DNA from: Magnolia sinica
Taxonomy: Eukaryota > Streptophyta > Magnoliopsida > Magnoliales > Magnoliaceae
NCBI RefSeq assembly: GCF_029962835.1
Contig: NC_080582.1
Location: 77,806,177-77,870,176 of the forward strand
Length of the DNA: 64,000 nucleotides
Reading direction: 5' to 3'
The notes below the pieces were generated by a model. That model saw only the letters and a list, made by a program, of their open reading frames with translations. It had not been told where the DNA came from and ran no database searches. This document shows positions 8,816 through 32,625 of the stretch, piece after piece. The stretch's first letter is position 1, and each line of letters starts with the position of its first letter. A program made the position numbers and the translations under genes.

Positions 8816-9049
8816 CAATTCTTAGGTTCTCGCAAGGTCAATAAGTTAGGTCACAAATTTGACAATAATATTTAGCCCATTTTATATGTATAGTCTATTC
8901 ACTCTATTTTATTGATCAATACCCTCAATTTGACTAGTTACTCGCCCTAATCAAGCTAGATACATGTGAGAAAGGTATTGGGAATACAAGATTAATCAAT
9001 AGTTTGAGTGAAATTTGATTTAAATATATGAAGCGATTTACTTTTCAAT

Positions 9050-10080: not shown

Positions 10081-10099
10081 AAAAAAAATGTAAAACAAT

Positions 10100-10320
10100 A
10101 ATGTTAAGGCAAAAGTCCTTTTACGACGGACAATGATCCGTCGCAGAAGAAACTGAAAAGCACGCCATTTAGTATTTTGGGCGGGAATTTGCAACTGTTT
10201 ATTTTCCGTCGCCAAATCAAAATTTGTGACGGATTTCGTCCGTTGCCTAGTTACGACAGACAAAAAACCGTCATAAATCAGATTTTAGCGACAGATTTTG
10301 GTCCCTCGCTAAGTGGCTAA
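10100..10320. mobile_element. CACTA-like subterminal repeat region
   Basis: It carries ACGACGGACAATGATCCGTC, GTGACGGATTTCGTCCG and TTAGCGACAGATTTTGGTCC, so it is the same motif array as at 1-205. No terminal CACTA is seen nearby. It may be a remnant or part of the same disrupted element. Confidence 0.45.
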
Positions 10321-11214: not shown

Positions 11215-11470
11215 AATAGTTTTACTTGGTGTGGCCAACATTAATCACAGATGGGTCAAATTATGTACTTTATCTACGCCACATATCCATTTTTACATAT
11301 CACTTTAGGTCTTTATACAAAAAATGACGAGGATATAAAAATCAGGTGGACCACACCACAGGAAAAAGTAGTGATTAAACGTTCACCATTAAAAACCTTC
11401 TAAGGCCCATTGTAATGTTTATTTGACATACAACCTATTGATTAGGTCATGCAGATCGGGATGAAGGGAA
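11215..11470. mobile_element. Partial MITE-like element
   Basis: It holds the core landmarks AGGTGGACCACACCACAGG, AAGGCCCATTGTAATG and AGGTCATGCAGATCGGG. The right half is missing, replaced by the next copy after an A run. Confidence 0.6.
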
Positions 11471-11480
11471 AAAAAAAAAG

Positions 11481-11911
11481 GGTCCACCGTGATATTTATA
11501 AGAAATCCAACCCGTTCATCCATTTTTCGAGCTCATTTTAGGATATGCGATAAAAAAAAATTAGGATAATCCAAAACTCAACTGGGCTATACAAGATGAA
11601 ACAGTGGGAAAAGAAATTGCTACTGTTGAAACCTTCCTAAGCTCCACCTTGATGTTTATATGCCATCCGAACCGCTTATAAGGTTAATTTTACTGGGATG
11701 AAGTGAAAGCACCGTAAGCTTACAACACCGATACAAAACTTTTGTGACCATATAAATATTTCAACGGTGAAAACTAAATCCCCACTTTTTCATCTCTTGT
11801 GGCCCATTTGAGTTTTGGATCCACCTTATTTTTTCTCACGTGTCATGAAATGAGATCAAAAATGGATGGATGGGTTTAATTTCTGACAAACATTGCAGTG
11901 GGCCTCACCAA
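11481..11911. mobile_element. MITE-like element, GCAGGAA-shell type
   Basis: The left GGTCCACCGTGATATTTATA, AACCCGTTCATCCATTTTTC and right AAAAATGGATGGATGGG, ACATTGCAGTGGGCC are inverted. After the right end comes CCGCAGGAACTTATGCGGAA, the outer module shared with copies at 42.6 and 43.1 kb. Confidence 0.7.
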
Positions 11912-12234
11912 GAATCCTTCCGCAGGAACTTATGCGGAAGCATTTTTGCAGGAAATCAGCGTCCTGAGAAAACAAGTACTGATGCTCCTCGTGCTCCGAG
12001 TTGTACGAACGGTTCAAAGTAGATCAAAGTTATATGGGCCCCACAATCCACTGACAACACCATCATTACCTTGAAATACATGCCATCCACCCTAATCGCA
12101 TGCCATCCCTTCCAAACCACCCGGCCAAACACGCCCTTGAGTACTTGGTTGTACTTGGTTATTCATTACGCAATCCATCCGCTTTCCCGGGAGATCTTCG
12201 CTCGATAATCCCAGCGCGTGAGAACTTCGGAAAC

Positions 12235-12750
12235 GGATTGGCTTACTCCCCGTGCCACCGGCCGGTAGGTTCTATGTGGACCTACCATGATGTATGTGTT
12301 TCATCCCTACTGTTCATCCATTTTTATAGATCATTTCAGGGTGTAAAACCAAAAATGAGTTATATACCAATCTCAAATGACCACATTAAAGAAAACTATG
12401 TTTAGTGAATGCTGACCATTAAAAACTTTTTGGGGCTTATAAAAGTTTTGGATCAAGATTATCGTTATTTTCTCCCTTCATCTAGGTCTGTATGATCTAA
12501 TCAATATATTGGATGTCATAAAAACAGTACAGTGGGCCTTGGGAAGATTTTAGTGGTGGATATTCTATCACTATTGTTTTCCTGTGTTTGTGGTCCCCAT
12601 GAAATTTATATTCCTCTCATTTTTTATTTCAAGCCCTAAAATGATCTGTAAAAATGGATGAACAGCATGGATGAAACACATACATAATGGTGGGGCTCAC
12701 AGAGTACCGAACACCACTGACGGGGCTAGTGGCAGGGGAGTAGCCAATCC
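12235..12750. mobile_element. MITE-like element, GGCTACTCCCC-shell type
   Basis: The left outer end GGATTGGCTTACTCCCCGTG and right outer end GGCAGGGGAGTAGCCAATCC are inverted. Inside lie CATGATGTATGTGTTTCATC and its inverse. It belongs to the same subtype as 7472-7993 and 31252-31710. Confidence 0.8.
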
Positions 12751-12774
12751 GTTTCCGGAAACTTCCTCCTCCGT

Positions 12775-13306
12775 GGGCGCGGATTAGGTACTTCCCTGCC
12801 TGTTCCGAGCTCGGGACAGGCGGGGGCTAAGAGGGCCATCTTGTTGTTTTAATTTTGTCCCGTCCATCCATTTTACCGTATCATTTTAAATTATTAAGGC
12901 AAAAATGGAGAATATTAAAGGCCTAAATGGACCACAAGGTGGGGATTAGATTCCTATCATTAGAAAATTCTTGGGGACCACAGAAGTTTTGGATCAAGGT
13001 GATATTTGTTTTTTCAATTCACCCAGGTGTATATGACCGTATCAACAGGTTGGATGGCAAATAAAAAACATGGTGGACCCTAAGAAGGTTTCAACGGTGG
13101 GCATCCTTAGCACTGCTTCTTCCTATGGTGTGGTCTAATTGAGTGTTGGATCTGTTTTATTTCTTATTCAACACCGTAAAATGATATGGAAAAATGGATG
13201 AACGGCTTGGATAAAATTAAAACATCACGGTAGACCCTCAGTGGCCCTCAGAGCCTCTGCCTGTCCCGAGCTCGAAACAGGCGGGGGAAGTACGTAATCC
13301 GCGCCC
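12775..13306. mobile_element. MITE-like element, GAGCTCGGGACAGG-shell type
   Basis: The outer ends GGGCGCGGATTAGGTACTTC...CCTGTTCCGAGCTCGGGACA and CCTGTCCCGAGCTCGAAACA...AAGTACGTAATCCGCGCC are inverted. The core between them is the same family (CCGTCCATCCATTTTACC and its inverse). Confidence 0.8.
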
Positions 13307-13309
13307 CTC

Positions 13310-14043
13310 CGCTTCTTTCGTTCCGGAATTCGGACGCGGATTTCGTGCGAAAGGGAAGTTACTGCGCTGTAACCTAGGTGGGTCCCACCGTCATGTCTGT
13401 GAGACATCCACTCCGTTCATCTGTTTTGTGAGTGCGCTCATTTTAGGACATGTAGCCGAAACTGAGCCGAATCTACTACTCAATTGGGCCGAAAACATGA
13501 GGGGGCCGAAAACATGAGGATTGAACGTACACGATTCACATATTTGTGGGCCACAAAAGTTTTGAATCAGGATAATATTTTTGTTTTCAGCTCATCCCAG
13601 TAGGAATGGTATGGATGGAATGTAAATATTACTATAGATCCCAGGGAGGTTTCAATGGTAGGAATTTTCCTATCCACATTTTCCTTTAGTGCGGCCCACG
13701 CAAGTCTTGGATCCTGCTCACTTTTGGGCTCAATTCCTAAAATGATCTCATAAAACCGATGGACAGGGTGGATGTCTCACAAACATCACAGTGGCCCCAC
13801 CTAGGTTTACAGCGCATGAACTTTCCGGCAGATTTTCTGCAAAAGCCTTTCATACACACGGATGCTGGGTGGGGCTAACGTTAGGTTGGAGAGGAATCCA
13901 TACCGTCCATCCGTCTTTTGAGCATATTTTAGCACATGTGACCAAAAGCGAGGTGGATCCAAAATTCAAGAGGGTCACACGATAGGAAAAACCCTGCCTG
14001 ACGATAGGAACTACAAGAGATGGCTATAAAAACACTACCTGAC

Positions 14044-14106
<63 letters not shown>

Positions 14107-14420
14107 AACAAACAAACTATAATGATTTTATTTCTTATAACAAATGAAAAAACACAAGGCCGAGTCGCAACCGAGTCAGGGCTGAATCAGGGCGAGTTAC
14201 AATATAGTGAATTGGCGCGTACCTTTTCTCGCATTAGCAATCGCATATGAGCATGATTCTCCATTCGATTCAAGATTATTAGATTTGTTGGATTTGTAAC
14301 TTATTTAGGAGTTTGAATTTATGATTTGGAATCTTGTTATTTTGTTTTCACTATTATCACTTGTTGAAAATTCATATTGCTATTTTCTGTTTTTTAGGCT
14401 ATCCTTTGAGAGTATAAATT
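13310..14420 (+). promoter_or_regulatory. Promoter-like block, copy 1 (paralogue of 43.1-44.05 kb)
   Basis: This block aligns with the sequence upstream of F-box copy 2. It shares an embedded MITE-like element (13374-13800 against 43156-43575), the TATA segment CTATAAAAACACTACCTGAC (TATA at 14025), and downstream stretches such as TGAGCATGATTCTC and GGAATCTTGTTATTTTG. The 5' UTR exon and splice donor seen in copy 2 are not conserved. A GA repeat and unrelated sequence replace them. No F-box exon follows for about 14 kb, so whether this promoter is used is unknown. Confidence 0.6.
14045..14104. repeat. GA microsatellite
   Basis: About 29 GA repeats begin some 20 bases after the TATA-like box. 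They occupy the position of the GA-rich start of the 5' UTR in the 43.6-kb paralogue. Confidence 0.95.
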
Positions 14421-14768
14421 TGAGATGATCTTGACAATTTATGTAGAAATTGATGATTTTGATCCATGGTTAGAAGACTTGGCTACTGGACCTGACTTGT
14501 TCAGGCTTGAGTCGAGTTGGGACTGGACTGAGTTGAGGGTGACTTGAGATTTTCTGCAAAAGCCTTTCATACACACTAACATACTCCTACGTGCCGAATC
14601 CAGAGGTGTTACACACCAAGATTAGTCACACTTTTTGTTTCAGTCAATCACATCTCTCTCTCTCGCTCGCTCTCTTTTTCTCTGATGATGTTGCATGTTC
14701 AACGTAATTTCTTTCTATCTATGATCTCAAAAAATCAAGATAAACCATAGGGTTAAACAATTAATGAG
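14421..14768. other. Non-coding flank left of the CACTA-like element
   Basis: No gene is recognised. It contains a 29-base exact copy (14548-14576) of 13831-13859, and the 35-base segment 14686-14720 that is repeated at 20377-20411. Confidence 0.6.
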
Positions 14769-15079
14769 CACTACACCAAAATCATGGATCTGGAACGGCT
14801 AAGGATTTGGTTTTAAAACGGTTTTAAACCGTATATAATTTGCCACGGTTTTGAACCGTTTTCGAATTTCTAACTCCATTCAACTTTTTAATGGTTGAGG
14901 TTGCTGTTCGAACTGCTTTTTTGGTGTGTCCCACTAGGGTTTTGGATCTTCCTGATTTTTAAGATCCTGTTTAATTATTATATTTGAAAATATATGGACG
15001 GAGTAGATTTGATGAAGATCATCTCCGTGGACCCCAAATAACCCCAGGCGGCACTAAGAAATATCTCTGCCTAGGGTCA

Positions 15080-15389
15080 CAGCCCATTTGATCCTGGCGT
15101 TGTTTCCCAAATCCGATAAAACCCTAATCTCTCTCACTCTCCCCCTTTCGCGATAAAACCCTAATCTCGATCCCTCTCTCTCTGGCGATCTCCCTCTCCC
15201 TCTCGATCCCTCCCTCTCTCTCACGCGATCTCCCTCTCCCTCTCGATCCCTCCCTCTCTCTTGATCTACCTCACTCTCGATCTGCAATCCTTACTCCGCA
15301 TCCACCAACCGCTGAAACCCTGCCGCATCTCCGGTCATCAATAGCAATAGAACGTTTTTGAGCTCCTTCCTGTTGCCAATCTGAAGAGG
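15080..15389 (+). pseudogene. Gene leader (5' UTR) inside the CACTA-like element
   Basis: It holds two AAACCCTAATCTC telo-box motifs (near 15120 and 15155), then a CT-rich leader with repeated CGATCCCTCCCTCTCTCT, and a splice donor CTGAAGAG/GTAATG at 15390. Telo-boxes with CT-rich leaders are typical of ribosomal-protein and other highly expressed plant genes. There is no ATG on the plus strand within it, which fits a non-coding first exon. The host gene is not identified. Confidence 0.45.
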
Positions 15390-15839
15390 TAATGTTGCCT
15401 TTTGATTTTTGTGTTCATTTTGGTTTTGAATCTCTGTTTTGAATATCTGTTTGGATGATGAAATCAGCTGTAATAGAACCCTAGTCGAAGCTCTGTTTGC
15501 TGAGAGTATTATCTTGAAGTGTATTTTTTTCTTCTTTCATGCTGATTGGTACGGGAGTGGGTTGGGAGTTCAATAAAGTCAGTTTGGATCTTTAACCGTC
15601 TTTTTATCCAACTCGATTGGTAATGGTTTTTGGTTGGTTTGGTTTTAAATTATGAAATGTTATCTCCCTAGGGCCGGGCCTATAAAAATAATATTTTGCC
15701 TGGCATATTGACAGTTCTATGTCCGTATAAAATCCACTCTGTCCATGATGGTACTGATGTTCCACACAAGTGGCACGTTGGCAGGAAAGGGTACGATACA
15801 AGTTGTGGTACTTTGATTATAGGTGATCAGTTCTCTAAT

Positions 15840-16113
15840 AAGGGTCCGTTTGGATGCCTATAAGTTGGATTTCACCTATAACTGACTTACAACCTGTAAG
15901 TCACTTACATGTGGAAAGTTACATTTGAAAAACATGGCAAAGACCTGTGTTTTCACGTACTTGTAAGTAACTCACAGGTACAACGGTCGTCCCTCCCTCC
16001 AAGTGATTTATAGCTTACATCCAAACAGTCAGCATGTAAGTGACTTTCACCTGAAAGTGACTTTCTGGTGAAGGTCACAACTTTTTTAATTACAGGCATC
16101 TAAATGACCCCTA
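15840..16113. mobile_element. hAT-like MITE
   Basis: The ends GGGTCCGTTTGGATGCCTAT and ACAGGCATCTAAATGACCCC are inverted. The flanks TCTAATAA and CCTAATGA could be an 8-bp target duplication with two changes. Plant hAT MITEs often carry such GTTTGGATG ends. It lies inside the larger CACTA-like segment. Confidence 0.55.
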
Positions 16114-16330
16114 ATGATGCAATTGTGAAAATTCAACGGTTCCCATGCTTCACCGACAGAACTATATGAGAATCCTGATAGACAGCGCATGCAATTACCA
16201 AACATGCCTGCAAACCAGGACGATCAAAACCAGTAATCAATACCACATTGATGCTTTCTCAATATTAATAAATTTTATTTATTTATTTTTTTTTTTAGAG
16301 AACCCATTTCGAGTTCCAATGCTCGTTGCC

Positions 16331-17760
16331 TAAGATGTGGGTGAGAAGTTGTCTCATAAGGTTTGTGTTTCTTGGGATTGTTAGTCTTCTTTTGCTTGTG
16401 ATGTGATTTGTAGTTCCAATGTTGTTTTAAAATTCAACATCTAACATCCAAATCTCTAGCTTTAAAAGATAGGCTTGAATTTGAAATCCACCAACCAAAT
16501 CCTTGGAGTGAATGTAAGGCTAAGATTCCCCACCCCCAATATTAGGAAGTATGGCCAAAACTTGGTTAGTGGACTTCAATGCCAACAAGGTAGGCTTGAC
16601 ATTTGAAGCCGTAGAAAATGGACCTTTGCTTCCATGTTTCCTCAAATCACAAGAAAGCAAAGCTTCAGGAACGTCACAAACTTATCACACTTGCGATTCC
16701 ATGGGAAACAGGCAACTTCCTAATGTAGCCTTAGCTTCTTTTTCTATGTAATTTTGTTCATTCTTTACCCTAAGATCCTGTGTTTTTGTGAAAGCAAAGC
16801 AAAATGATTAGCTAATATGCCCTGATTTTGTTCATTCTATGATTGCTTTGCTCATTGTATAAGATGTGGGTGAGAAGTAGTCACATAAGGTTTGTGTTTC
16901 TTGGTATTGTTAGTCTTCTTTTGCTTATAATGTGCCTTGTAGTTCCAATGTTCATCCCATATCGAATCTAGAACCGTGGTGGTTCTCAGAATTTGTGCTA
17001 CTTTATGATGAATATATGATTAAAGCGTGGATCATACCAATCAAATTACTTATTTTCAGTTTGATTGGGAATGAAAACATTAGTGAAATGAAAACATCAA
17101 CGGCAATTAAAAAAAGGATCATCGTTTTAATTATTTTTTTTGGAAACGAATCATTGTTTTAAAATTCAACATCTAACATCCAAATGTCTAGCTTTAAAAG
17201 ATAGGTTTGAATTTGAAATCTACCAACCAAATCCGTAGAGTGAATTTGAGGCTAAAATTTTTCCCCTGCAATAATATGAAGTATTTCCAAGTTGTGGTTT
17301 GGGGACTTGAAGCCAACAGGATAAGGTTGGTATTTGAGACCACAGAAAATTGAACTCTGCTTCCATGTTTTCCCAGATCACAAGAAAGCAAAGCTTCAGG
17401 AACGTCGTGAACATATCACACCTGTGATTCCATGGAAAATGGCCAACTTCCTAATGTAACCTTAGCTTTTGTTCCTGCGTAATTCTTAACGTAGTCTTAG
17501 CTTTTGTTTCTGCATAATTTGTTCATTCTTTACCCTAAGATTATCTATTTTTATGAATGGATAGCAAAATGATGAGCTAGTATTCTCTGAACCTGATGTG
17601 GAAAGAAACATGTAATGGTCTTCAAAGTTAACTGATTGCTTTGCTCGTTACGTAAGATGTGGATGAGAAGTTGTCTCATAAGGTTAGTGTTTCTTGGAAT
17701 TGTTAAGTCTTCTTTTGCTTGTGATGTGCCTTGTAGTTCCTGTATTGTTTTTTGGAGTGC
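16331..17760. repeat. Three degenerate tandem copies of a gene-like segment
   Basis: A block starting TAAGATGTGGGTGAGAAG occurs at 16331, 16860 and 17653. Units 1 and 2 continue with AACATCTAACATCCAAAT and AAGAAAGCAAAGCTTCAGGA. Unit 2 carries an extra segment of about 207 bases (about 16951-17157). This looks like local duplication followed by an insertion in one copy. Confidence 0.7.
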
Positions 17761-17932
17761 ATTTTAGATTTTGTTTTCTGAACAGTTTCGTTCATTCTTT
17801 CCTCTACCCATAAAAGCAAGGGAAAAGATGAGCCATCTTCCTCTGAATTTGATATAGGAGCACATAAGATATGTTGCAAGGAACCATCACATGAGCAAAG
17901 CATTAAAATTCGTACTTGGGCAGACTGCTAAG

Positions 17933-18373
17933 GATTGGTAGTTTAATTTCAGCATCTACTAGAATTGGAGTTGTATCTTTTGCAATTTATGGTTGTTTCT
18001 CTGTTGCAGTTGTACTACACGTAATATTTGATAGTATTTAGCAGCCACTGGCATCAAGTATTGGTGCAGCTCTTGTGATAGTGTGGTAGCAGTCTGTAGT
18101 ACTGACTCCTCTGTTGCATCTTAAAAGTAGTCCATGGGGATCTATTTGTTCTGATTGGTAGTTTAATTTCAGCATCTACTAGAATTGGAGTTGTATCTTT
18201 TGCAATTTATGGTTGTTTCTCTGTTTGCAGTTGTACTACACGTAATATTTGATAGTATTTAGCAGCAACTGGCATCGAGTATTGGTGCAGCTCTTGTGAC
18301 AGTGTGGTAGCAGTCTGTAGTACTGACTCCTCTGTTGCATCTTAAAAGTAGTCCATGGGGATCTATTTGTTCT
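17933..18373. repeat. 220-bp tandem duplication
   Basis: 17933-18152 and 18153-18373 are almost identical. Differences include one extra T in CTCTGTTTGCAG and a few substitutions. The unit begins GATTGGTAGTTTAATTTCAG and contains a TCTCTGTTGCAG acceptor-like site. High identity points to a recent event. Confidence 0.9.
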
Positions 18374-18550
18374 GATGAGTGCAGGACTTGCATGTCATCT
18401 TAATGCTTGTTGAGCATTGCCTTTGTATTCTTATTGATGAAAGAGTTACCAAAGGTGCACTCGGTGTTTTTAGGATTTGGTTCGTGAGGGAGAAGAAGCA
18501 TCTTTTACATCATAATTATTGCTAAGTTAGTAATAAATATTCATGTACAG

Positions 18551-18648
18551 GTTTGAGGAGCAAGAGGCTCCTGTTTCCAGGCATGCCCTTGAATCATTTC
18601 TACCAAAGAGAGAAGTGGGCTCTCCAACTGAACTGTAGAAGTGCTACC
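18551..18648 (+). pseudogene. Exon-like segment in the CACTA-like element
   Basis: An acceptor TCATGTACAG and donor GCTACC/GTAAGCC bound 98 bases. One frame reads FEEQEAPVSRHALESFLPKR and then reaches a TAG 10 codons later. I do not recognise the protein. It may be a captured terminal exon. Confidence 0.35.
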
Positions 18649-19262
18649 GTAAGCCATGTTGTTTGATTTTTTAATGTCCTCAACTGTTTTTCAGTCTCAG
18701 AAATTAAGTATTTTTAATGCATGCCTCAGCTTCTGTTTCCAGGCTAGACTAGTGTACATGTTTTCTACTTCTGAAAAGGTGTTGTTTCATCTGCTGCACG
18801 TGGTGTACATATACGTCAATCCAGACCAGTCAAAACATGGCTCCATTGGTGGTGGTGAACGTCCTAAAATTCACTTATCTGATAATCAGAACCAACCAAT
18901 CGCTGGCCATCAAATGGGTTGTTAAAAGAAGAAAAGAAAGTTCATGAAAAACAAAAAGAAGAAAAAGTTCATATAAGGTAATGGTGTTAGATTTTAAATT
19001 CAAAATTTCTCCCCCTGGGCTGAATCTAGTACTTGGTTCATGGTTTTTTAGCATTTGTTGGTTTGATTATTCAATTGGGTTTCTCCATATTTATCGGTTT
19101 CTTGTCAATCTATGATTTGGTTGCATCTGTTTCTTTCTGATCCGAATTGGATTTTTTTTCCAAGTTAAATTGGGTTTTATTTGTTTGATCTTTGGATGAA
19201 TTGAAATGTGACTCTTAGATCTACTTCTTTTTTTCTTTCACTTCACATTTCATTCTTGCTAG

Positions 19263-19357
19263 AAAGAATTGACTATCACTCAGATGCACCATAGCCCATC
19301 CCAGTCGTCATTAGATGATCCTTCACCTGTTTCTGGATGGTCAAGAAAACTATACAG
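19263..19357 (+). pseudogene. Exon-like segment in the CACTA-like element
   Basis: The segment lies between TTCTTGCTAG and ATACAG/GTATGA. One open frame of 31 codons contains TITQMHHSPSQSSLDDPSPV. A further open segment after TTATATTCTTAG at 19993 reads KCLVLVGLGDDDQCIEGASH but is not in matching phase. Protein identity is unknown. Confidence 0.35.
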
Positions 19358-20376
19358 GTATGATCTAGAAAAAAAAGTCTATAGATCAAATGGTTAGAAA
19401 ATGCTAATTACTATAATTTCTTTCCATTCATCCAGAAAAAAAGTCTATAGATCAAAGTTTATTTGATTTTGCTTACAACAGAAAAGCCATTTTCAGAAGC
19501 TGAATTTTGTTCATTTAAATTTAGTTTGCCTGAAGTGAAAAACAAATCTCTGATTTCACGAACTTACTTATATCTTAAATGTCGTACCAATTTATCTATG
19601 AATTTCTACGTCTTATCTAAAATTGTACGTGTCTTAAATTCAAAACCAATTTAATTTACATACATCTTCAGTCAATCTGTTTTTTATTTTCCGTTGATTT
19701 TTTATTCAGTTGACCTATATGGTGAGTTTTCTTTCTTTCCTTTAACAAACCAACAACAATGTCTCAGGAAACATTTCAAGCTTACCATGCCTTATGTGCA
19801 TTTTGCATCATAATCCTATATGTCATATAAAGCAGGGTTAATTGGCCTGGGAACTGAGGGGTCCCAAATGCATGTTTGTATTTCTAGTCCTTTGTAACAT
19901 GCTCCCATTCTTCAATCTTGATCATTAGTGGGGAGACTTTTCTTTTTCACTCGATTACCAATTAACTTCAATTTCTATAGTTATATTCTTAGGTGGGAAG
20001 TGCCTTGTTCTTGTGGGTCTAGGAGATGATGATCAATGCATTGAGGGAGCTTCACACGCCATCTCCGCAAAGCTATAATTTAAAGTGCTAGCCTTTACTG
20101 TAGCTTATTTTGTAAATTTGATTTTGCAATGAAACATCTTCAAGCACATTATTTTCTTATGTTTTTCTTTGGATTAATCTCTATTTTGATGGAATGTAAT
20201 AAACTTTTGTTAATTTATTTCCCTTAATCTTAAATTTCATGTGTTTATCTAGGTTTAAAATTGTTCCTAAAATTCCGTCTTAAAATCTGAACGTTGGCAA
20301 CGTTAAGTTTTAAAACCGTTTTTAAAATTTCATTCTTAAAACGACCGTTGGCACCGTAAGGGTTTAAAACTGTTCC

Positions 20377-20411
20377 TGATGTTGCATGTTCAACGTAATT
20401 TCTTTCTATCT
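20377..20411 (+). repeat. 35-bp direct repeat at the broken CACTA right end
   Basis: This is an exact copy of 14686-14720 (TGATGTTGCATGTTCAACGT and 15 more bases). It sits where the right terminus of the element should be. It looks like repair-templated filler rather than a transposon target duplication, which is 3 bp in CACTA. Confidence 0.85.
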
Positions 20412-21106
20412 TTTTTTCTTTTTTAATCATGGATCGCCAATTATAGACATCAGAAGATGGACGAATATGAAAATATTTATGAGGCCCACTAGTGTTTGCT
20501 AGATGGCATTCCTATAATAATATTTATATGCAATAAGAAATTACGATATCTTAAGCAGTGCCCTTCACGTGAGTTACACTTCTTCCATCAGGTGCAGCCT
20601 CTAATGTTTACCATACATGCCTCAGCCCAGTCCAAAACCAAGGTGGGCTACACCATAAGGTGGAGTAATGTAAAATCGGGCTTGGGGTTTATGTTCCATT
20701 GACCTCAATGGTCATCAAGTACATCATTGCAAATTTAGAGTGATTTGAACGGTAAATGATGAGATTTTATCAAAAATATAATATACTTAAGAGTAAGATT
20801 TGAACCCAACCTGATGTATGTACATCTCCACACTAGGGTGGGCTGACTCACGCAGAATGGTCACCAGGTGGGTGCCACATTGGGACTTGTGAGATTCAGG
20901 ATAGCATGTAGGGATATCTCAATCGTTTGTCAGAAAGGGCATAGATAAAGGGATATTCTGGTGCTTCCCAAATAGCTTTGGAGCTTTTGGCACATTCACC
21001 GGTACTTGTAAAAATGGATGAATCGCATGTTTCTTATGGTTTTGTCCACTTGAGCTTTGGATATGATTCACTTTTGAATCATGTCCTAAAATTTTATATA
21101 TATAGG
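20412..21106. other. Intergenic stretch with MITE-derived fragments
   Basis: Pieces of the short inverted-repeat family are visible (AAGGTGGGCTACACCATAAGG; TGTCCACTTGAGCTTTGG near 21045). No gene is seen. Confidence 0.4.
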
Positions 21107-21380
21107 AAATGGTTCTAAGCAGTCGAGCTCATGGGAACTTCCCATGAGGTCGAGCTGTGTGAGCCCCACTGTGATGCGTGTCAACATCTACCCCATCAGT
21201 CAGATGTGCCCACCATTCCATGGTGGGCCATGGGCATAAAAATTAAGTCAATCCATGACTTCGGTGGGCCACACCACATACAACAATTGAGAGGGATAGT
21301 TCCGTATATGACTGGTTTTTGGGATATCCCATATATAATTTAAAGGGGACCCATCAAATGCATGGTATTGATGTTAGACA

Positions 21381-21841
21381 TGATGGAGATTTTCTCTGCA
21401 TTACTGGGTTCGATGAAATCGAACCAGTTTCGATATCATTGATAATTGCTGGATTTTTCACCGCTGGTCGCTGGACAGTTTTTTGGTCCTATCGATATCA
21501 TCGATGGACTTTAGATGATATCGAGGCTGTCATCGAGAGTGGTTCGATGACATCGATAATTGTTAGAATTTTTCACCTTTGGTCGTTGGACAGTTTTGGT
21601 CCTGTTTCGATATCATTGAAGGACCGTCGATGATATCGAAGGTTGTTATCGAGAGACCGTCGATATCATCGAAGAGTTACGCAAATGCGATTGCGAAAAC
21701 GTAAATTTTGCGGATTTTATTTCTTATTTGGATTCTACCTCTTTCTATTCTTATATAAAGGGGTGTATGCGGGATTGGGGTGTATTCCAGGGTTTTCTAA
21801 GGTTTCCTTGAACCTCTCCCTCATTGGATTTTATGATTTTT

Positions 21842-21902
<61 letters not shown>

Positions 21903-22267
21903 TGGAAGGGAGATTCTGCTCGTAGAGGTGATCTACTTCGCAATCTACGTCTCAACGCTTCTACGTCCTCGTGATCGATGAGATCCCTCTGTTTTCCATT
22001 ATTCTCTTATTTTTTATCTATTCTTGCATGAGTGAAGAAGGTTTGATTCAAGCGGTGTGTGCTTGTGATCGGTTGTAACGTTCTGCTTTATAGTGGATTG
22101 TTGATCTGGACGAGGTCTCGTGGTTTTTACCTCTTTGAGGGTTTTCCACGTAAAATTCTCTAGTGTCATGTGGTTTATGCTTTGATTTATTTCATTGCTT
22201 TATTATTCCATAATTCTGGTTTGTTTCAGGAGGTTAGATCCTAAGGTTTTGTGCAAGGCCCCTAACA
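21381..22267 (+). repeat. 5' LTR of the copia element
   Basis: It starts TGATGGAGATTTTCTC and ends GGCCCCTAACA, 887 bp. The first 105 or so bases and the last 420 or so match the 3' LTR. The block between, rich in CGATATCATCGA, does not. It contains a GA microsatellite at 21847-21898. Confidence 0.88.
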
Positions 22268-25200
22268 AAGTGGTATCAGAGCTAAGTTCATTGAACGGGT
22301 AGGATCGGTTTGAAATTATGGAAGATGGCTCATCAAGGATGATCAGCCTCAATAGTTCTAACTGGACCATATAGAAGGCTAAGATGGAGGACTTACTTTA
22401 TTGCAAGGACCTATATTCTTCAATTTTAGGCATATCAGCAAAATCCAAGGATATGTTTGATGATGATTAAAAGAAGATGGACCGAAAGGTGGTGAGTTTA
22501 TTAAACAATGGCTGGATGATTTTGTGTTCCACCATGTGTCTACGAAAACCTTAACCGCTAACCTATGGCTAAAACTAGAAGGGCTGTATGAGAGGAAGAC
22601 AGCTGGTAATAAAAATTTTCTGATAAGGTGACTTGTGAATCTCAAGTTCAAGGATAGTAGTTCTGTGGCCAAGCACATGAATGAGGTCAGCAATATAGTG
22701 AACCAACTCTCCGCCATGAAGATGGTCATGGATGATGAATTGCAGGCTTTACTATTACTTAGTTCATTGCTTGATAGTTGGGAGACATTAGTGGTGTCTC
22801 TATGTAACTCCGCGCTAGACCGGAAGATATCCATGGAACAGGTGACTAGCTGTCTCTTCAATGAGGAGACAAGGAGGAAGTCTCAGGAGTCTACTCAGCA
22901 AGAGGCCCTTGTGACATAGGAACGGGGGAGAGGAAAGAACAGGAAGGACGGGAAGGCCCGAGATAAATCAAGAGGCAAGTTAAGTAACAGAAAAGATGTT
23001 GAATGCTGGAATTGTGGCAAGAAGGGCCACTATAAGCATAAATGTCGTAAGGCTAAGAACAACAAGAAAGGAAAAGGAAAAGAGAAGGAAGATGAATCAA
23101 ATTCTACCACGGTCGCTTCAGATGGCGACGTTGTAGTTATTCTTTCTGCAGATCATGATGTATGTCTCACGGCTATGAGTCAGGACACCGACTGGGTGAT
23201 AGACTCAGGAGCTTCTTTTCACGCATCTCCACGTAGGGACTTCTTCACAAGTTACAAGTCAGGTGACTATGGGACCATGAAGTTGAAAAATTCTGACGTA
23301 TCGAAGATCGTAGGGGTTGGTGATATTTGTGTGAAGACCGATATGGGCTGCACATTGGTTCTCAGGTATGTGAGGTATATCCCAGACCTTCGCCTCAACC
23401 TGATGTCTACGGAAAGGCTGGATGATGATGGTTATGAAAGCCGGTTTGCTGGTGGGTGCTGGAAACTTATTAAGGGTTCGTTGATCGTGGTTAGAGGAAA
23501 GAAGTGTTGCACTCTTTACAAGATAAGTGTCAGTGTGTGCAAGGGTGAGTTGAACGCAGCGGAAGATTTAGCTATTGACATGTGGCACAGGCGTCTAGGC
23601 CACATGAGTGAAAAAAGGCTTTAGCTACTAGCGAGGAAGCGGCTCCTTCCAGACATGACAGGAACACCTCTCAAAACCTGTCTTAATTGTTTATCAGGGA
23701 AACAACATAGAGTTCCATTCGATAAAATTACTTTTCATGTTAGTAAAGTGCATGCATTAGATTTGGTTTATTCTGATGTTTGTGGTCCTATGAGGACAAA
23801 CACCTTGGGTGGGGCATTGTATTTTGTCACTTTTATAGATGATGCATCTAGGAGGGTTTGGGTGTATGCTTTGAAATCCAAGGACAAGGTCTTTAGTGTG
23901 TTTAAAATGTTTCATGCTATGGTCGAGAGAGAGAGGTAGATCATTGAAGTGCATCCGCACTGACAATGGTGGTAAATACATTGGTGACTTTTATGAGTAC
24001 TGCAAGTCTCTGAGTATACGGCATGAACAGGTAGTTCCCAAGACCCCCCAGCATAATGGTGTAACTGAGCGAATGAATCGCATCATTGTTGAGAGAATCA
24101 GATGCATGTTATCCCATGCGAAATTGCCTAAGACATTCTGTGGAAAAGCAATGCATACGGTGGTGTATTTGATAAATGGGTCTCCATCAGCCCCGTTGAA
24201 TGGAGAAGTGCCTGAGAAGGTGTGAACTGGACAGGATCCATCGTACATTCATCTTAGGGTGTTTGGATGCAGAGCATCCGTTCACGTATAAAATTTTTCA
24301 TGCTATGGTCGAGAGAGAGAGGTAGATCATTGAAGTGCATCCGCACTGACAATGATGGTAAATACATTGGCGACTTTTATAAGTACTGCAAGTCTCTAAG
24401 TATACGGCATGCAGAGGCGGTTCCCAAGACCCCCCAGCATAATGGTGTAACTGAGCGAATGAATCGCATCATTGTTGAGAGAATCAGATGCATGTTATCC
24501 CATACAAAATTGCCCAAGACGTTTTGCGAAGAAGCAATGCATACGATGGTGTATTTGATAAATAGGTCTCCATCAGCCCCGTTGAATGGAGAAGTGCCTG
24601 AGAAGGTGTGGACTGGACAGGATCCATCGTACAGTCATCTCAAGGTGTTTGGATGTAGAGCATCCGTTCACGTAGCAAAGGATGAGAGGTCCAAGCTCGA
24701 TATGAAGATCTGGCAGTGTGTGTTCTTGGGGTACAGTGATGAAAAATTCGGTTACAGATTATGGGATCCGACCGAGAGGAAGCTTGTCAGGAGCTCTCTG
24801 AGTTTATGGCATGAACAGCGGTTCCCAAGACCCCCCCAGCATAATGGTGTAACTGAGCGAATGAATCGCATCATTGTTGAGAGAATCAGATGCATGTTAT
24901 CCCATGCGAAATTGCCTAAGACATTCTGTGGAAAAGCAATGCATACGGTGGTGTATTTGATAAATAGGTCTCCATCAGCCCCGTTGAATGGAGAAGTGCC
25001 TGAGAAGGTGTGAACTGGACAGGATCCATTGTACATTCATCTCAGGGTGTTTGGATGCAGAGCATCCGTTTACATACCAAAGGATGAGAGGTCCAAGCTC
25101 GATATGAAGATCAGGCAGTGTGTGTTCTTGGGGTACAGTGATGAAAAAATCGGTTACAGATTATGAGATTCGACCGAGAGGAAGCTTGTCAGGAGCAGAG

Positions 25201-26946
25201 ATGTGGTTTTCTTTGAAGATCAGTATATTGAAGACATTGATAAGCCAGAGAAGAACCAGCCTAGTTCAGGTGAGCTAGAGGACATGGATCTGGTTATTCC
25301 TCCTGTGGTGCCTGATGACGGGGAAGTATAACAAGGTACTGAGGACGAGGGAGTTTCTACAGAAGATGGACCAGGGAGCAGCCCCCACTTGATCCACCTG
25401 TTGAGCCATAGGTGAGGAGGTCATATAGGGACAGATAGCCGTCTAAGAGGTACCCACCTATGACATGGTGAAACTGCCTAAGGGCAAGAAAGCTCTGAGC
25501 AATAAGTGGGTGTTTAGAAAGAAGATTGAGCAGAAGAATTCACAGACGAGGTTCAAGGCCAGACTTGTAGTGAAAGGGTTCGGTTAGAGAAAAGGTATAG
25601 ACTTCGAGGAGATATTCTCACTAGTAGTGAAGATGACATCCATACAGGTGTTGCTTGGGTTGATGGCTAGCATGGATCTGGAGATAGAGCAGTTAGATGT
25701 CAAAACTGCCTTTCTCCATATTGACCTAGAAGAAGAGATCTATATGCACCAACCAGAGGGGTTTAAAGTCAAGGGCAAGGAGCATATGGTGTGTAGGTTG
25801 AGAAAGAGCTTGTATGAGCTGAAACATGCTCCATGACAATGGTACAAGAAGTTCGACTCGTTCATGTTACAGCATGGGTATGACAGAACGGAGTCAGACC
25901 ACTGTGTGTTCACGCGCAAGTTCTCAGATGGTGATTTCTTAGTTCTGCTGTTATACGTTGATGACATGCTCATTATGGGAAAAGACATCAAGAAAATTGA
26001 CAGGCTGAAACAGGAATTGGGCAAGTCGTTTGCCATGAAAGACTTGGGCCCGGCTAAACAGATCCTAGGAATGGAGATAACTCGTGACAGAAGCAGCAGG
26101 AAGCTTTGTTTGTCACAAGAGCGGTATATTGAGAAAGTCCTAAAGTGGTTCAATATGAATGCAGCGAAGCCGGTCAGTACTCCATTGGATGGTCACTTCA
26201 GATTGAGCGACAAGTAGTGTCCCAAGACGAAAGCAAAGGTGGATGAGATATAGAAGATACCTTACGCGTCAACAGTAGGAAGTTTGATGTATGTTATGGT
26301 GTGTACACGCCCAAACATAGCATATGCGGTTGGTGTTGTCAGCCGGTATCTTGCCAATCCTGGCAAAGAACATTGGATAGCGGTGAAGTGGATACTGCGG
26401 TATCTAAGAGGCTCATCCAGGTTGAGCCTATGCTATGGTGATGGAAAACCTATGTTAGAGGGCTACACAGATGCAGATATGGCAGGCAACATAGACTCTA
26501 GGAAGTCTACATCAGGGTTCTTGTTCACGTTTGCAAGGGGAGCGATTTCTTGACAAAGCAAGCTACAGAAGGTTGTAACATTGTCGACGACAGAGGCCGA
26601 GTATATTGCAGTCACAGAGGCATGTAAAGAGATGCTTTAGATGAAGAGGTTCCTACAGGAACTTAGCCTGAAGCAGGAGCAGCACGTGGTCTATTGCGAT
26701 AGTCAAAGTGCTATACACTTGAGCAAGAATCCAAGTCAGCACTCCAAGTCGAAGCACATAGAGATTCGGTATCACTGGATCAGGGATACTTTGAAACAGA
26801 AGGTGTTACAGCTTGAGAAGGTCCACACGGACGATAATAGGTGAGACATGATGACCAAAGCTTTGCCTAAGGGCAAGTTTGAGGTTTGTAAAAACTAAGC
26901 TGGCTTGAAGAATGTGAATTCCTCCTGAATCGAAAAGGGAGAGATT

Positions 26947-27751
26947 TGCTGAGAATTTTCTCTTCATTGCTGGGTTCGATGAAATCGAACTAGTTTCGAT
27001 ATCATCGATAATTGTTGGGATTTTTCACCCCTAGTCGCTGGACAGTTTTTGGTCTTGTCAAGTGCCCTACTTGACCAGTTGAGTGGTGCTCAACTCAAAG
27101 TCCAACAACCAATTGAGTTTATTCTTCTGCACTCCTCGACCAGTCGAGGACTCTGCTCAACCAGTCGAGGTTACGCAGATTCATGTCTGGATTTTGTGCG
27201 TACTGCATAAATTTAAGGCGGTTTTTGACATGGTGCGGAAAAGAGTTGCCTAAACTATAAATAGGGGTTTGTAAGGCTTTTCTAGGTAATGCAGGAGGGT
27301 TTCCTAAATCTTTACAAGGATTTGCTAAAGGATTTAAGGCTATCAAAGGTGTGTGTGTGTGAGAGAGAGAGAGAGAAAGAGAGAGAGGAAGCTTGTGGAA
27401 GGGAGGCTATGCTTGTAGAGGTGATCTACCATATCTCAGCGGTTCCACGTTCTCATAATCGGTGAGATCTCTCTGTTTTCTTTGTTTCTCTTATTGTTTA
27501 TCCACTCCTGCGGGAGTGAAGAAGGTTTGATCCAAGCGGTGTGTGCTTGTGATCGGTTGTAACATTCTGCTTTATAGTGGATTATTGATCTGGACGAGGT
27601 CCCGTGGTTTTTACGTCTTTGAGGGTTTTCTATGTAAAATTCTCTGGTGTCGTGTAGTTTATACTTTGATTTATTTCATTTCTTTATTATTCCATAATTC
27701 TGGTTTATTTCAGGAGGTTAGATCCTAAGGTTTTGTGTAAGGCCCCCAACA
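26947..27751 (+). repeat. 3' LTR of the copia element
   Basis: It starts TGCTGAGAATTTTCTC and ends GGCCCCCAACA, 805 bp, followed by the target duplication AGACA (27752-27756). Its middle block carries CGACCAGTCGAGG repeats instead of the CGATATCATCGA sequence of the 5' LTR. Confidence 0.88.
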
Positions 27752-27824
27752 AGACACACATCACGGTGGGGCCCACAAAGCTCGACCTCATGGGAAGTTC
27801 CCATCAGGTCGACCGCATAGAACC

Positions 27825-27830
<6 letters not shown>

Positions 27831-27871
<41 letters not shown>
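27831..27871. repeat. GT microsatellite
   Basis: About 20 GT repeats directly follow the right end of the split inverted-repeat element. Confidence 0.95.
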
Positions 27872-27874
<3 letters not shown>

Positions 27875-27957
27875 ACAGATGAACAATACACTTTTTTTAA
27901 TAGTAATTATCTTTTTATTTCCACTCTAGGTAACTAGAAAATTACACTTATGGTTTC

Positions 27958-28132
27958 AATTTTAAATTCTTGAAGTTTTATGAGCCTGATTTAGTAGTAT
28001 AAGCTAAAAACTGATTGGATTTAAGATGTACTATTGATTTACTTTGTTCCAAGTACTTTTGTAATAGAAATGTAATATTTACCATGATCCCTTCATCTAA
28101 TTTCATGTTTTATTTCACTTTTTTTTTTCCAG
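27958..28132 (+). other. Intron 3' end upstream of F-box copy 1
   Basis: From CAATTTTAAATTCTTGAAG onward the sequence matches 44484-44658 closely. It ends in a strong acceptor (TTTTTTTTTTCCAG, AG at 28131-28132). The equivalent position in copy 2 is the end of a 0.9-kb 5' UTR intron. Here no donor exon is found nearby. Confidence 0.65.
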
Positions 28133-28190
28133 CTCTAAGGAAACACAGTTGCATAATCTTGAGTGATCAGTAATATTGAGAAGGATATAC

Positions 28191-29429
28191 ATGGCTGACT
28201 GGTCCCAACTTCAAAAGGAACTGTTACGTACAATCGCTGAATTACTATCTGCCAACAGGGATTATCTGGCATTTCGTGCCACTTGCAAATCATGGAGATC
28301 GGCCGTGGAGGAAATGCCTCTTCATTACCCTTACCAGCTACCACTGTTAATGCTTCCATATGACAAGAACGTCAAGGCCTACAGTGCCTTTAGTTTATCT
28401 GATAACAAGATATTTTACCTCAAGCTATCAGAGGTTCATGGGCTAAGGTATTGTGGTTCTTCCAATGGTTGGCTGGTTGTTGTAGATGAGACCCCTGTCA
28501 CTCGTTTATTTAATCCATTTACTAAGACTCAGATCGAACTTCCTCCAATAACAACATTTTCCGAAGTACTAGGGTTTGACAAATCCAGAGTGGGTGCAGA
28601 GTACAATGTACGGTCTTTATTCAATGGTGTAGTAGAAACTCCAAACTCGGAATGGATAAGAACCCGCTTCATAAATAAGGCTATGGTATCCTCCGACCCT
28701 ACATCGAACCCCAACAATGTTGTTATGACCCTCCATGGTGAGCTTCAAAAATTGGCATTTTGTAGACATGGAGACAATGAGTGGACCGTAATTGAAAAGA
28801 TATGGTGTCCTTATTGTGGCATTGTGTGTTATAAAGAACAATTCTATGTGGTAGATGTTAATGGAAGAGTTGCACTTTGCAACATTGATGGTCCTCCCGA
28901 TGCAGTGGAGGTCATGCCACAAATGAATTTCCATGTGCTGCGACAAATGAATATCTATAAGCAGATGATTTATTTAGTGGAATCAATGGGGGAGCTATTA
29001 CAGGTTGTTAGATATTGTAAAGACATTCATAATGGTGAGTTTGTTAGATATTATGAAGATAATGATAATTGGATATATTATACAGTTAAATTTAAAGTTT
29101 TTAAGATGGATATAAGTAGGGGGGAGAGGTTTGAGGTGAAAACTCTTGGGGATTGTATGTTGTTCTTAGGCTCAAACTACTCATTATCTCTCTCGGCTCA
29201 CGATTTTCCCAGCTTCAAAAGAAATTGTATTTACTTTACTGATGACGAAATATATCCATATAAGGCTGGTGTACGAGGGGGTCATGATTTAGGCATGTTC
29301 AACTTGGAGGATAATAGCATCACATCGTTGCCATGCCAATACCATTCAAGCAATGACTTGGGAATGATTTGGCCTCCACCCATATGGTTGCACACATCTT
29401 ATCGTTGTAATGAGGCGTTGGAAGAATAA
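28191..29429 (+). CDS. F-box/DUF295 (KIB1-4 beta-propeller) protein, copy 1
   Basis: This is a single-exon frame of 412 residues. I start it at ATG 28191 (MADWSQLQKELLRTIAELLS), the Met that also opens copy 2. Residues about 1-45 form the F-box (DYLAFRATCKSWRSAVEE), which in this family binds SKP1 of an SCF ubiquitin ligase. About 60-395 form the DUF295 propeller region (LRYCGSSNGWLVVVDE, RLFNPFTKTQIELPPI, VCYKEQFYVVDVNGRVALCN, TLGDCMLFLGSNYSLSLSA). The usual size for the family is 350-420 residues. The protein is about 93-95 percent identical to copy 2 and lacks six residues near KVGDEYDDNW. No stop or frameshift is present. The promoter-like partner lies near 14.0 kb, separated by a CACTA-like and a copia element, so expression is doubtful. 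Substrate is unknown. Confidence 0.93.
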   Translation: MADWSQLQKELLRTIAELLSANRDYLAFRATCKSWRSAVEEMPLHYPYQLPLLMLPYDKNVKAYSAFSLSDNKIFYLKLSEVHGLRYCGSSNGWLVVVDETPVTRLFNPFTKTQIELPPITTFSEVLGFDKSRVGAEYNVRSLFNGVVETPNSEWIRTRFINKAMVSSDPTSNPNNVVMTLHGELQKLAFCRHGDNEWTVIEKIWCPYCGIVCYKEQFYVVDVNGRVALCNIDGPPDAVEVMPQMNFHVLRQMNIYKQMIYLVESMGELLQVVRYCKDIHNGEFVRYYEDNDNWIYYTVKFKVFKMDISRGERFEVKTLGDCMLFLGSNYSLSLSAHDFPSFKRNCIYFTDDEIYPYKAGVRGGHDLGMFNLEDNSITSLPCQYHSSNDLGMIWPPPIWLHTSYRCNEALEE

Positions 29430-30128
29430 TTGCATTTAATGTTTTTTTAAAAAAAAAATATTTCTCAAATACACATTCGATAAACATTTTTTCTTTCCAC
29501 GATTTTTGTTAGTTTATATTAATAGATGTTTAGTAATTTGATGAGAGATTGAAGAAGCAAACTTGGAAGTTTGACCATAATATCTATGTGCATTTAGAAA
29601 TTTAGATTTTTTTTCTTACTAAGTTCTATGAAGTTAAACATACAATAGAAACAAGTTTTCAGAGTTAAGTTGCTTCAATTCCAGCCTGAAGTTAGATTGT
29701 TTAGCTTTATATTGATTATACAAGGAGGCCAGTGTAACAGTAATCACCTAATTGGAGGACTTATTACCTCCGTCTAATAGTCATTCACATGTCCATGTGG
29801 GGTCCACCACGTCCATATTTATCATGCTAATCCAAATATGTTCATTAGTGCACAATTATCATGCTAATCCAAAATTCAAGCGTGACTGATAACAGAGCAA
29901 TTAGGACGAAGAACTGATGATTACAAAGCTTCCAAAATGTGCGTGGGCTAGCCATGTCTTTTTATTGTGTGTGAGGCCTAAAATTTATATGCCGTGGATG
30001 CTCTCACCCCATATGAATGGATAGCCCAAAAATCAGGTCATTCCAAATGATTTTAGAGTTTTTCAAAGTGATTTTACATGAGTTTGGCCACTCTAGATTT
30101 GGATTAACAAACATGAAAGGGCATACAT
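29430..30128 (+). other. 3' flank of F-box copy 1, conserved among the three copies
   Basis: It starts with TAATTGCATTTAATGTTTT after the stop and then an A run. It is similar to 45974-46486 and to 52044-52795. It probably includes the 3' UTR and transcription end. No other gene is seen. Confidence 0.6.
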
Positions 30129-30890
30129 TATTTGCGAAACACGAGGAAATAGAAAGCACACAGAAGACGACCCCATGTTTATGTGAAATCCACCCAACCA
30201 CCAGGTGCATCACCCCATGCTAGACTAATGGCTAAAATTTTTGCCCCAACCATGATTTAGGTAGACCACATGATTGAAAATAGTGTACTGCACAATGATG
30301 GTTCTCCAAAATAATTTTAGTTGGTGCGGCTGACATAAATTACAAATAGGTCTGATTTTAGCTCTGATTTTTGTCCCCTAGGCCTAAATTTTGGCGTTGT
30401 ATCTAATAATTGGAGTGGATTTCATATAATCATTATAGTGGCCTTGTAAAAATAGGGTGGATCTCTCCAAACCATTTCCTTTGCTCTGCCCCTGCCTGAA
30501 CCATTAGTAAGCCTTATCATTTGCCCTGGGCTTATTTGGGATTACACTATACATTGCAGGGTGAAAACACAATTAATATCTTAAGATAGGAAATCCCATT
30601 CGGTTTACTCATTAGGTTTCGCAAATCATCCTGTTAAGATTTTTAAATTTTAGAAAATAGACCTAGTTAGATCGGTGAAGGACGGAGTCGTGAATGCTTT
30701 ATTTAAATTTTCAATTATTATTGTAATAAATTAAAATATGAAAGTCAAGGCCTGCTGGCATGAAAAAAAAAACACAAAGAAACCCCGAACGCAAAACGCT
30801 TCTTTCCATTTTCTCCATTGGAACCCACCAAGGATCCCACTAAGACTAAACTTTTAATCAATACGTTTCATCCTACCGAGTAAACTCTTT
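30129..30890. other. Intergenic stretch
   Basis: There are some decayed fragments of the inverted-repeat family (GTAGACCACATGATTGAAAA near 30262). Nothing else is recognised. Confidence 0.4.
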
Positions 30891-31248
30891 TGAGACCACC
30901 TTGATTGTATTTGGTTTATCCATGCCGTTCATCAGTTTTTCCAGCTCGTTTCAGTGGTCGAACTCAGCATTGAATCATATCAAAATCTCAATTGGACCAC
31001 ACCACAAGGAAACAGTCGGAATAATGATTTCCAACATTGAAATCTTCTTAGGGCCTAGAGTGAATTTTATTTGTCATACAATCCGTTCATAAGATAAAAA
31101 AGACATGGATGAAGGGAAAAAAACAAATATCAGATTGATCAAAAATTTCTGTGGTGCCTAAAAATTTTAGGTTCAATTCACTTTGTTTATTACGGTGTGG
31201 TCCAATTGAGCTAGCTTTGGATTTGTTTCATTTTCGGGATCAAGACCT
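30891..31248. mobile_element. MITE-like element, right end truncated
   Basis: The left TGAGACCACCTTGATTG and CCATGCCGTTCATC are followed by the core TTGGACCACACCACAAGG and TGGTCCAATTGAGC. The right end stops at AAAAACTCCCCCC, where the next copy begins. Confidence 0.65.
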
Positions 31249-31251
31249 AAA

Positions 31252-31710
31252 AACTCCCCCCTGCCACCATGATGTATGTGTTTCATCGATGCCATCCACC
31301 CATTTTTATAGATTATTTTAGGGTATGAGACCAAAAATGAGTTATATCGCAATCTCAAGTGGACCACATTACACGAAGCAGTGTCATTAAAAACTTTTTG
31401 GGCCCAAAAAGTTTTGGATCAAAACAATATTTGTTTTTTCCCTTCATCTAGGTCTGTATGACCTAACCAACATATTGGATGTCAAATAAATAGTACAGTG
31501 GGCCATAGGAGGATTTTAATGGTGGATTTCCAATCACTATTGTTTTCCTTTGGTGTGGTCCACATGAGATTTATATCCTTCTCATTTTTTGTATCAAGCC
31601 ATAAAATGATCTGTAAAAATGGATGAACAGCATGGATGAAACATATACATCATTATGGGGCTCACGTATCACCGACCACCAGCCATGGGGTAGTGGCAGG
31701 GAAGTAGCCA
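31252..31710. mobile_element. MITE-like element, GGCTACTCCCC-shell type
   Basis: The left ACTCCCCCCTGCCACCATGA and right GTAGTGGCAGGGAAGTAGCC are inverted. The core shows ATGTATGTGTTTCATC and GGATGAAACATATACATC. Confidence 0.7.
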
Positions 31711-31855
31711 AAAGCGGATTGCGTAGTAACTCAATACCCTTAGCCTACTGAGTAGATTGTGTGAGGTCCACCATGGTTTATGTATTTTATCTGCTCCGTC
31801 CATCCATTTTATCAGATAATTTTAGGGCTTGAGCCCAAAAATGAGGCATATCCAA

Positions 31856-32625
31856 TGTTAGGGGGTGAAACTTGAATAAGGACAATCAGGGTGGTCCTAA
31901 GCCCTCTGAATCAGTTGATAAGGGCTCGGAAGGGGAACATTGCGACAAGTACAGACTAACCTCTGAGTCACGATTACAGGATGGGTGGAACAAGCCCTCG
32001 CCTTCGGTCTCAGGGCGAGTCATCATTCTCGTACTTAACCCCATCGGAAAGACGACATCCTACGAACTTCGACCCCAAGCATTTCGACAGTAAATTCCGA
32101 CTACTATTTCTCGATCACAAGCTTAGGCGAGACGAGGTCGAGCCTGGACTGACACTCCGAATGATAGAACTCGGCCTCGGAACTAGACAAATTGAGGTCG
32201 AGCCCGAGTGAGGACACTCCGAGTGCCGAGCCCAGAGAATAACCTAAATGCGGACGTGACCGAAGATCTCGCCCGAGGATACGCCCCCTTAAAACATGAT
32301 ACACTACATGATCTAAAGATTGCGGATAATATCTCCACGATCGTAATACCCTCATGATTGAGTAAATCGTGCCGAAATTAATGGACGTGATCCTCTTTAC
32401 CCACTGGTATAAATACTAGGGGACCCCATTACAACAGGTACGTAAGATCTCTCACCCTCTCTCTACATCACACAAGTTAGACCTAGATTCCCAGGCCTGA
32501 CTTAGGCATTGGAGGGTCCCCCGGCTAAGCCAGGGTCTCCTTTGCTCACCATTTTTATGCAGGATCAGGGACCGTTTGGAGTAGTCAGCATCGAGAGGAG
32601 GGTGATCCATATTTTGACCTCAACA
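31856..32625 (+). repeat. 5' LTR of the gypsy element
   Basis: It runs from TGTTAGGGGGTGAAACTTG to TTTTGACCTCAACA, 770 bp. GTATAAATACTAGGGGACCC near 32408 is a likely TATA box and start region. Confidence 0.9.

Follow-up and report, generated by a model that had tools for sequence, protein, structure and literature searches.

The question raised by this locus is how the promoter and the coding exon of one plant F-box gene came to lie about 14 kb apart, and whether the one still serves the other. In the 64,000 nucleotides of Magnolia sinica analyzed here (contig NC_080582.1 of assembly GCF_029962835.1, positions 77,806,177 to 77,870,176; hereafter the window), there is a tandem pair of F-box/KIB1-4 genes, copy 1 and copy 2, plus a truncated third copy. 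An earlier note, made from the sequence letters, had read copy 1 as a duplicated unit whose first intron was filled by insertions. Our comparison suggests a different explanation, to which we give about an even chance: sequence exchange has maintained the similarity between the coding halves of the tandem F-box units, whereas the promoter halves have drifted apart.

The F-box gene copies and their proteins

The two genes are carried by open frames at 28191-29429 (412 codons, copy 1) and 44717-45973 (418 codons, copy 2), and the third copy, found through self-comparison of the window and alignments, is truncated on its 5' side and retains the 3' end of the coding exon and the flank (51907-52752). 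The genes, their parts and the elements in their gaps all lie on the plus strand, except for one motif identified below. An F-box (PF00646) was found by Pfam in both proteins with 20.7 and 22.6 bits in comparison to a cut-off of 20.5, and the KIB1-4 beta-propeller domain (PF03478) is complete in both (positions 2-242 of 242, with 216.9 and 231.6 bits, likewise over its cut-off); we take this family to be the one formerly called DUF295. A comparison of the copy 2 protein with solved structures gave no match.

The copy 1 frame of 412 codons has stayed open, as the earlier note had it, and 368 of the 412 aligned amino acids are identical between the two proteins. The Ka/Ks comparison proposed there gave a synonymous divergence (dS) of 0.092 (0.056-0.131), a nonsynonymous divergence (dN) of 0.048 and a ratio of 0.52 (bootstrap range 0.32-0.91, with about 12 of 1000 resamples at least 1), indicating relaxed purifying selection; judged from these frames, both of which are still open, the coding constraint is present but relaxed. 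Downstream of the exon, the 3' flank of copy 1 (29430-29966) corresponds to 45974-46487 with 32 differences among 506 aligned sites, and its homology to the third copy extends to about 30134.

Divergence of the promoter and coding halves

The blocks shared by the two copies, located by self-comparison of the window and then by full pairwise alignment, pair as had been claimed: 13306-14398 aligns with the copy 2 promoter block at 43115-44056, and 27958-29966 with 44483-46487, in matching order and strand. The promoter block of copy 1 begins with an inverted-repeat element upstream of the TATA box (13306-13850, counterpart 43115-43609, 64 differences among 482 aligned sites), continues with the TATA core CTATAAAAACACTACCTGACGATAG (14024-14048, counterpart 43653-43677) and an AG microsatellite (14047-14104), and ends with a putative 5' part of intron 1 (14146-14398, counterpart 43772-44056, 41 differences among 253 aligned sites). 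The second block opens with the putative 3' part of the intron (27958-28132, counterpart 44483-44658, 11 differences among 175 aligned sites), which includes the acceptor TTTTTTTTTTCCAG, ending at 28132 and 44658. The TATA box (43654) and the acceptor, both described earlier as common to the two copies, are indeed identical in them. An exact 30-base direct repeat (13830-13859 and 14547-14576) was also observed in the copy 1 promoter region and is perhaps break-repair filler.

For the measurement of divergence, the promoter half was defined as copy 1 positions 13306-13850 plus 14146-14398, and the coding half, by its non-coding parts only, as 27958-28190 plus 29430-29966. Copy 1 positions 13851-14145, which hold the GA-rich leader and one additional element and can be aligned only arbitrarily, were excluded, as was the small TATA block (31 sites with 3 differences), the inclusion of which gives 108/766. 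The Fisher tests assume independent sites. The results showed that the promoter half differs at 105 of 735 sites (14.3%) in comparison to 45 of 739 (6.1%) for the non-coding parts of the coding half, a 2.3-fold difference (Fisher p=1.7e-7; one-sided permutation of 50-base blocks, p=1.5e-4). The earlier note had stated that a clear difference in divergence between the two blocks would refute its reading, and such a difference is what we found; a single duplication of equal age was thus rejected as it stands. The excess persists when only transversions are counted (45/735 in comparison to 22/739, p=0.004) and when CG/CHG transitions are removed (80/735 in comparison to 38/739, p=4.9e-5), so transitions at methylatable sites do not explain the whole of it. 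For the 5' part of the intron alone, all differences amounted to 41/253 in comparison to 11/175 for the 3' part (p=0.002).

A single duplication could still be upheld by supposing that the copy 1 intron was filled afterwards, that promoter 1 drives exon 1 over about 14 kb, and that the promoter half mutates faster, which we consider improbable. The blocks are collinear, with the same order and strand in both copies, and the promoter half sits amid transposon sequence, both as this explanation would have it. The two pairs of long terminal repeats (LTRs) in the window, belonging to a copia element in the copy 1 gap and to a retrotransposon at 31856-42179, also have more differences overall than the coding half (p=0.031 and p=0.039), with no such excess in transversions (11/463 for the alignable parts only of the copia pair, and 20/740), suggesting that transposon-rich DNA here gains extra transitions. 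By transversions, however, both LTR pairs and the coding half look similar in age and the promoter half about twice as diverged, and the persistence of the promoter-half excess in transversions and without CG/CHG transitions argues against this explanation.

The main rival to exchange is a later duplication of the coding half. Copy 1 would then be a mosaic, with a promoter block (13.3-14.4 kb) inherited from an older unit and a coding half (27.96-30.1 kb) copied more recently from that of a neighbouring unit, so that the two would never have formed one transcript as they are now arranged. The difference between 14.3% and 6.1% fits such a history, as do the 3' flanks of the three copies, which are similarly close to one another (K of 0.066 between copies 1 and 2, 0.090 between copies 1 and 3, and 0.075 between copies 2 and 3). 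We nevertheless hold it to be doubtful, no more probable than the single duplication with a faster rate: order and strand agree with copy 2, and since the coding-half homology stops on its left at a transposon in copy 2, copy 1 shows no duplication boundary.

Make-up of the two gaps

The gap between the copy 1 blocks runs from 14399 to 27957 (13,559 bases), and about 12.4 kb of these 13.56 kb falls in two insertion-like pieces, a 5,691-base segment with 35-base direct repeats and an inverted-repeat element with a nested copia element. A filled first intron is therefore anatomically plausible, which also favors the single duplication; of the earlier claim that the intron was filled by insertions, the insertion-like pieces hold and the duplication of equal age is given up in view of the unequal divergence. 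We infer that the original copy 1 intron was about 1.5 kb or less. Part of 20.6-21.1 kb is also similar to inverted-repeat elements elsewhere in the window.

The first piece lies between the two copies of an exact 35-base direct repeat, at 14686-14720 and 20377-20411, which are 5,691 bases apart. Because of this repeat we gave up an alternative idea, that all of 14.4-21.1 kb is ancestral intron which copy 2 has lost. Within the segment, the C/D box small nucleolar RNA (snoRNA) snoR160 (RF00203) is predicted at 17563-17640 with 65.6 bits in comparison to a gathering threshold of 42; the prediction covers the full model (1-80), with terminal stem and boxes intact, and repeat alignment gave a decayed tandem relative at about 16798-16847. 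In PMC7464842, snoR160 is described as being of the H/ACA type, so that paper was not used for the C/D model. The surroundings of the snoRNA are tandemly repeated (16320-17751 and 17933-18376).

A CACTA-like element had also been listed in this gap. One CACTA-type end, CACTACACCAAAA, does lie at 14769-14781, but its partner was not found: a search for an inverted partner of 14769-14960 within 18901-21106 gave a best score of 41 in comparison to a maximum of 42 in 50 shuffles. A complete CACTA or Pack-CACTA element is thus unsupported, the second terminal inverted repeat with a target duplication not having been found. Twelve short frames between 15 and 20 kb were searched for protein remnants and gave nothing near the Pfam cut-offs, with a single row for DUF7761 (E=0.14, 12.6 bits in comparison to 27), and one of these frames gave only a meaningless match in PDB (E=1). 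A bacterial-type promoter scan was set aside as inapplicable to a plant.

The second piece (21107-27828, 6,722 bases) is an inverted-repeat element split by the copia element, with arms at 21107-21182 and 27753-27828 that are 89% complementary; no clear target duplication of this outer element was seen on inspecting its flanks. The copia element (21381-27751) has a 5-base target duplication, AGACA (21376-21380 and 27752-27756), paired LTRs, and interrupted frames in which Pfam found pieces of Pol_BBD and of the copia-type reverse transcriptase RVT_2. A short inverted-repeat element and a copia element had been listed here as separate; both are present, and since the arms flank the copia element they form one nested structure. 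The ends of its LTRs align and the middles poorly (21488-21860 in comparison to 27054-27330), which would fit an exchange of one LTR with another element, and about 390-400 bases of the integrase region (23903-25196) are present about three times in tandem.

In copy 2, the gap holds an inverted-repeat transposon without its left terminal arm (44050-44461), which abuts the end of the promoter-block homology. It matches positions 71-422 of a 431-base relative (53210-53640) and 120-494 of a 500-base relative (59096-59595), so that the first 70 or 119 bases are missing on the promoter side and the right end is nearly complete. The truncation falls just where the promoter-block homology stops, and at the joint the microhomology TTTT(N)AGG is common to copy 1 (14390-14398) and to the relative at 53280. 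Judged from the sequence of this joint, a deletion in copy 2 would explain it most simply. Copy 2, which had served as the template for the undisturbed order, is unfit as an unaltered one because its gap carries this apparent deletion scar.

Proposed exchange between the coding halves

From the alignments, divergences, repeats, nesting and truncation described above, we infer the following order of events, including the exchange and the loss of the promoter link. Each unit probably consisted originally of a promoter block, a short intron in the 5' untranslated region and one coding exon. The intron region of unit 1 would have gained the 5.7-kb snoRNA-bearing segment, perhaps by break repair or DNA-transposon activity, and also the inverted-repeat element, into which the copia element then jumped. 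In unit 2, a transposon would have landed near the acceptor, and a later deletion would have joined its interior to the promoter block and shortened the gap. With large insertions separating the units, exchange, presumably by gene conversion or unequal crossing-over, would have been limited to the uninterrupted coding halves, and these would thus have kept a similarity of about 94%, in comparison to about 86% for the drifting promoter halves.

Several observations weigh against this explanation. The transversion excess of the 5' intron part is not significant (14/253 in comparison to 5/175, p=0.24, or to 16/506, p=0.12), and the longest identical run in the coding-side block, 114 bases, is not unusual (permutation p=0.129), so a conversion tract is not demonstrated; the 50-base blocks on the coding side differ by 0 to 18%, and the promoter-block comparison rests on copies 1 and 2. 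The 35-base repeat could have another origin. Two further results bear against the deletion in copy 2. Beside the copy 1 blocks, no clear remnant of the copy 2 element was found, 11 of 12 comparisons being within the shuffle maxima and the remaining one barely over (27.5 in comparison to a 60-shuffle maximum of 26.5). The outer right arm of that element has a weak partner at 43171 (score 43 in comparison to a maximum of 33 in 100 shuffles), which lies inside the promoter-block inverted-repeat element and is taken as family resemblance; the relatives' own arms score 60 and 88. None of the tests used here distinguishes exchange from a later, independent duplication of the coding half, and a faster mutation rate of the promoter half is not wholly separable from it either. 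Either exchange between the coding halves or the later duplication would reconcile the facts.

Transcription of the copy 1 exon

Donor sites were scored with a donor matrix. Of the copy 2 intron drawn previously, the donor at 43755 scores only 2.8, below the 6.5 of a site at 43852; the limits of the copy 2 intron are thus conjecture. The donors of copy 2 are absent from the copy 1 leader, and the alignment shows a change at the place of the donor that the earlier note had called altered. The best copy 1 donor in 14022-14400 scores 3.3 in comparison to 6.5 in copy 2 (43650-44056), and there is an upstream ATG at 14122. Both points tell against transcription from promoter 1 across the filled intron; judged from these sites, the splice donor of promoter 1 is probably lost, and coding exon 1 may no longer be driven by this promoter.

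Two candidate promoters lie nearer to exon 1 than promoter 1, a snoRNA-type site at 15.1 kb and the TATA box TATAAATA at 27256 in the copia 3' LTR; the latter shares the strand of copy 1 and precedes its ATG by 935 bases. That copy 1 is now transcribed from this LTR seems to us quite unlikely. The TATA box and several donor-like sites of the LTR do stand upstream of an intact acceptor, but eleven ATGs lie between 27285 and the start codon unless they are spliced out, and the proposal is drawn from sequence patterns.

The other candidate, a promoter-like cluster of the snoRNA-host type (15081-15388), comprises a site II element (15081-15086, minus strand) and telo boxes at 15119 and 15156, the motifs spanning 15081-15164, then a CT-rich leader and a donor-like GAG|GTAATG at 15389, about 2.4 kb upstream of snoR160. 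None of 300 shuffles of the window contained this combination, a pattern picked post hoc; the control is weak because both motifs are less frequent in the shuffles than in the window itself (2.7 in comparison to 7 telo boxes, and 54 in comparison to 153 site II elements). If the donor at 15389 were spliced to the acceptor at 28132, with snoR160 in the new intron, the F-box gene would have been rewired, through a single insertion, to a snoRNA-host promoter of the ribosome-biogenesis type; we regard this as very unlikely, more so than transcription from the LTR.

Comparison with known systems

In Arabidopsis, 34 of the 40 non-intronic snoRNA loci are reported to be preceded by a telo box together with site II or TEF boxes (PMC3022908); the segment here resembles such snoRNA host genes in having telo boxes, site II and a pyrimidine-rich leader upstream of a C/D snoRNA, and differs in that the predicted snoRNA is 2.4 kb from the motifs. 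The insertion of COPIA-R7 in Arabidopsis RPP7 (PMC7529245) is similar in that a copia element is inserted in a plant gene; effects on expression are reported there, while the present element is known as sequence and, together with its host element, fills only about half the gap. Filler DNA that carries genes, left by break repair near transposon insertions (PMC3445842, citing Wicker et al. 2010), likewise puts a gene segment in an unexpected place; the segment here lies between 35-base direct repeats and near transposons, and its movement would be an interpretation. Pack-CACTA elements (PMC8903248) share a CACTA-type end beside gene-like, non-transposon DNA, the second terminal repeat being the part not found here. 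F-box families undergoing rapid birth and death (PMC3030570) show the same tandem copies, relaxed selection and truncated copy, the insertions being the only notable difference.

The case is one of ordinary insertion-driven change in a tandem F-box family. As a compact example, it illustrates that a duplicated gene can be split by insertions, after which its parts evolve at apparent rates that differ, and it cautions against taking a sister copy as ancestral because it is shorter. If a snoRNA-type promoter or the LTR did drive the F-box exon, one promoter would have been cleanly swapped for another; if not, the case is ordinary turnover of a plant genome.

Other features of the window

The second LTR retrotransposon, at 31856-42179 between the two F-box units, has a target duplication of TCCAA and pieces of gag and RNase H, and 67 of its 740 LTR sites differ. 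At 1634-2492 on the minus strand, pieces matching the Sec63 Brl and SNRNP200 winged-helix domains were found, which we presume to belong to a BRR2-type helicase gene or fragment. A tandem duplication of 428 bases occupies 61725-62595, with copies about 94% alike. Many repeat elements that resemble one another, often in inverted orientation and with GTGGGCCCAC-like motifs, occur at 7018-13240, 30880-31860, 42180-43100 and 58290-59590.

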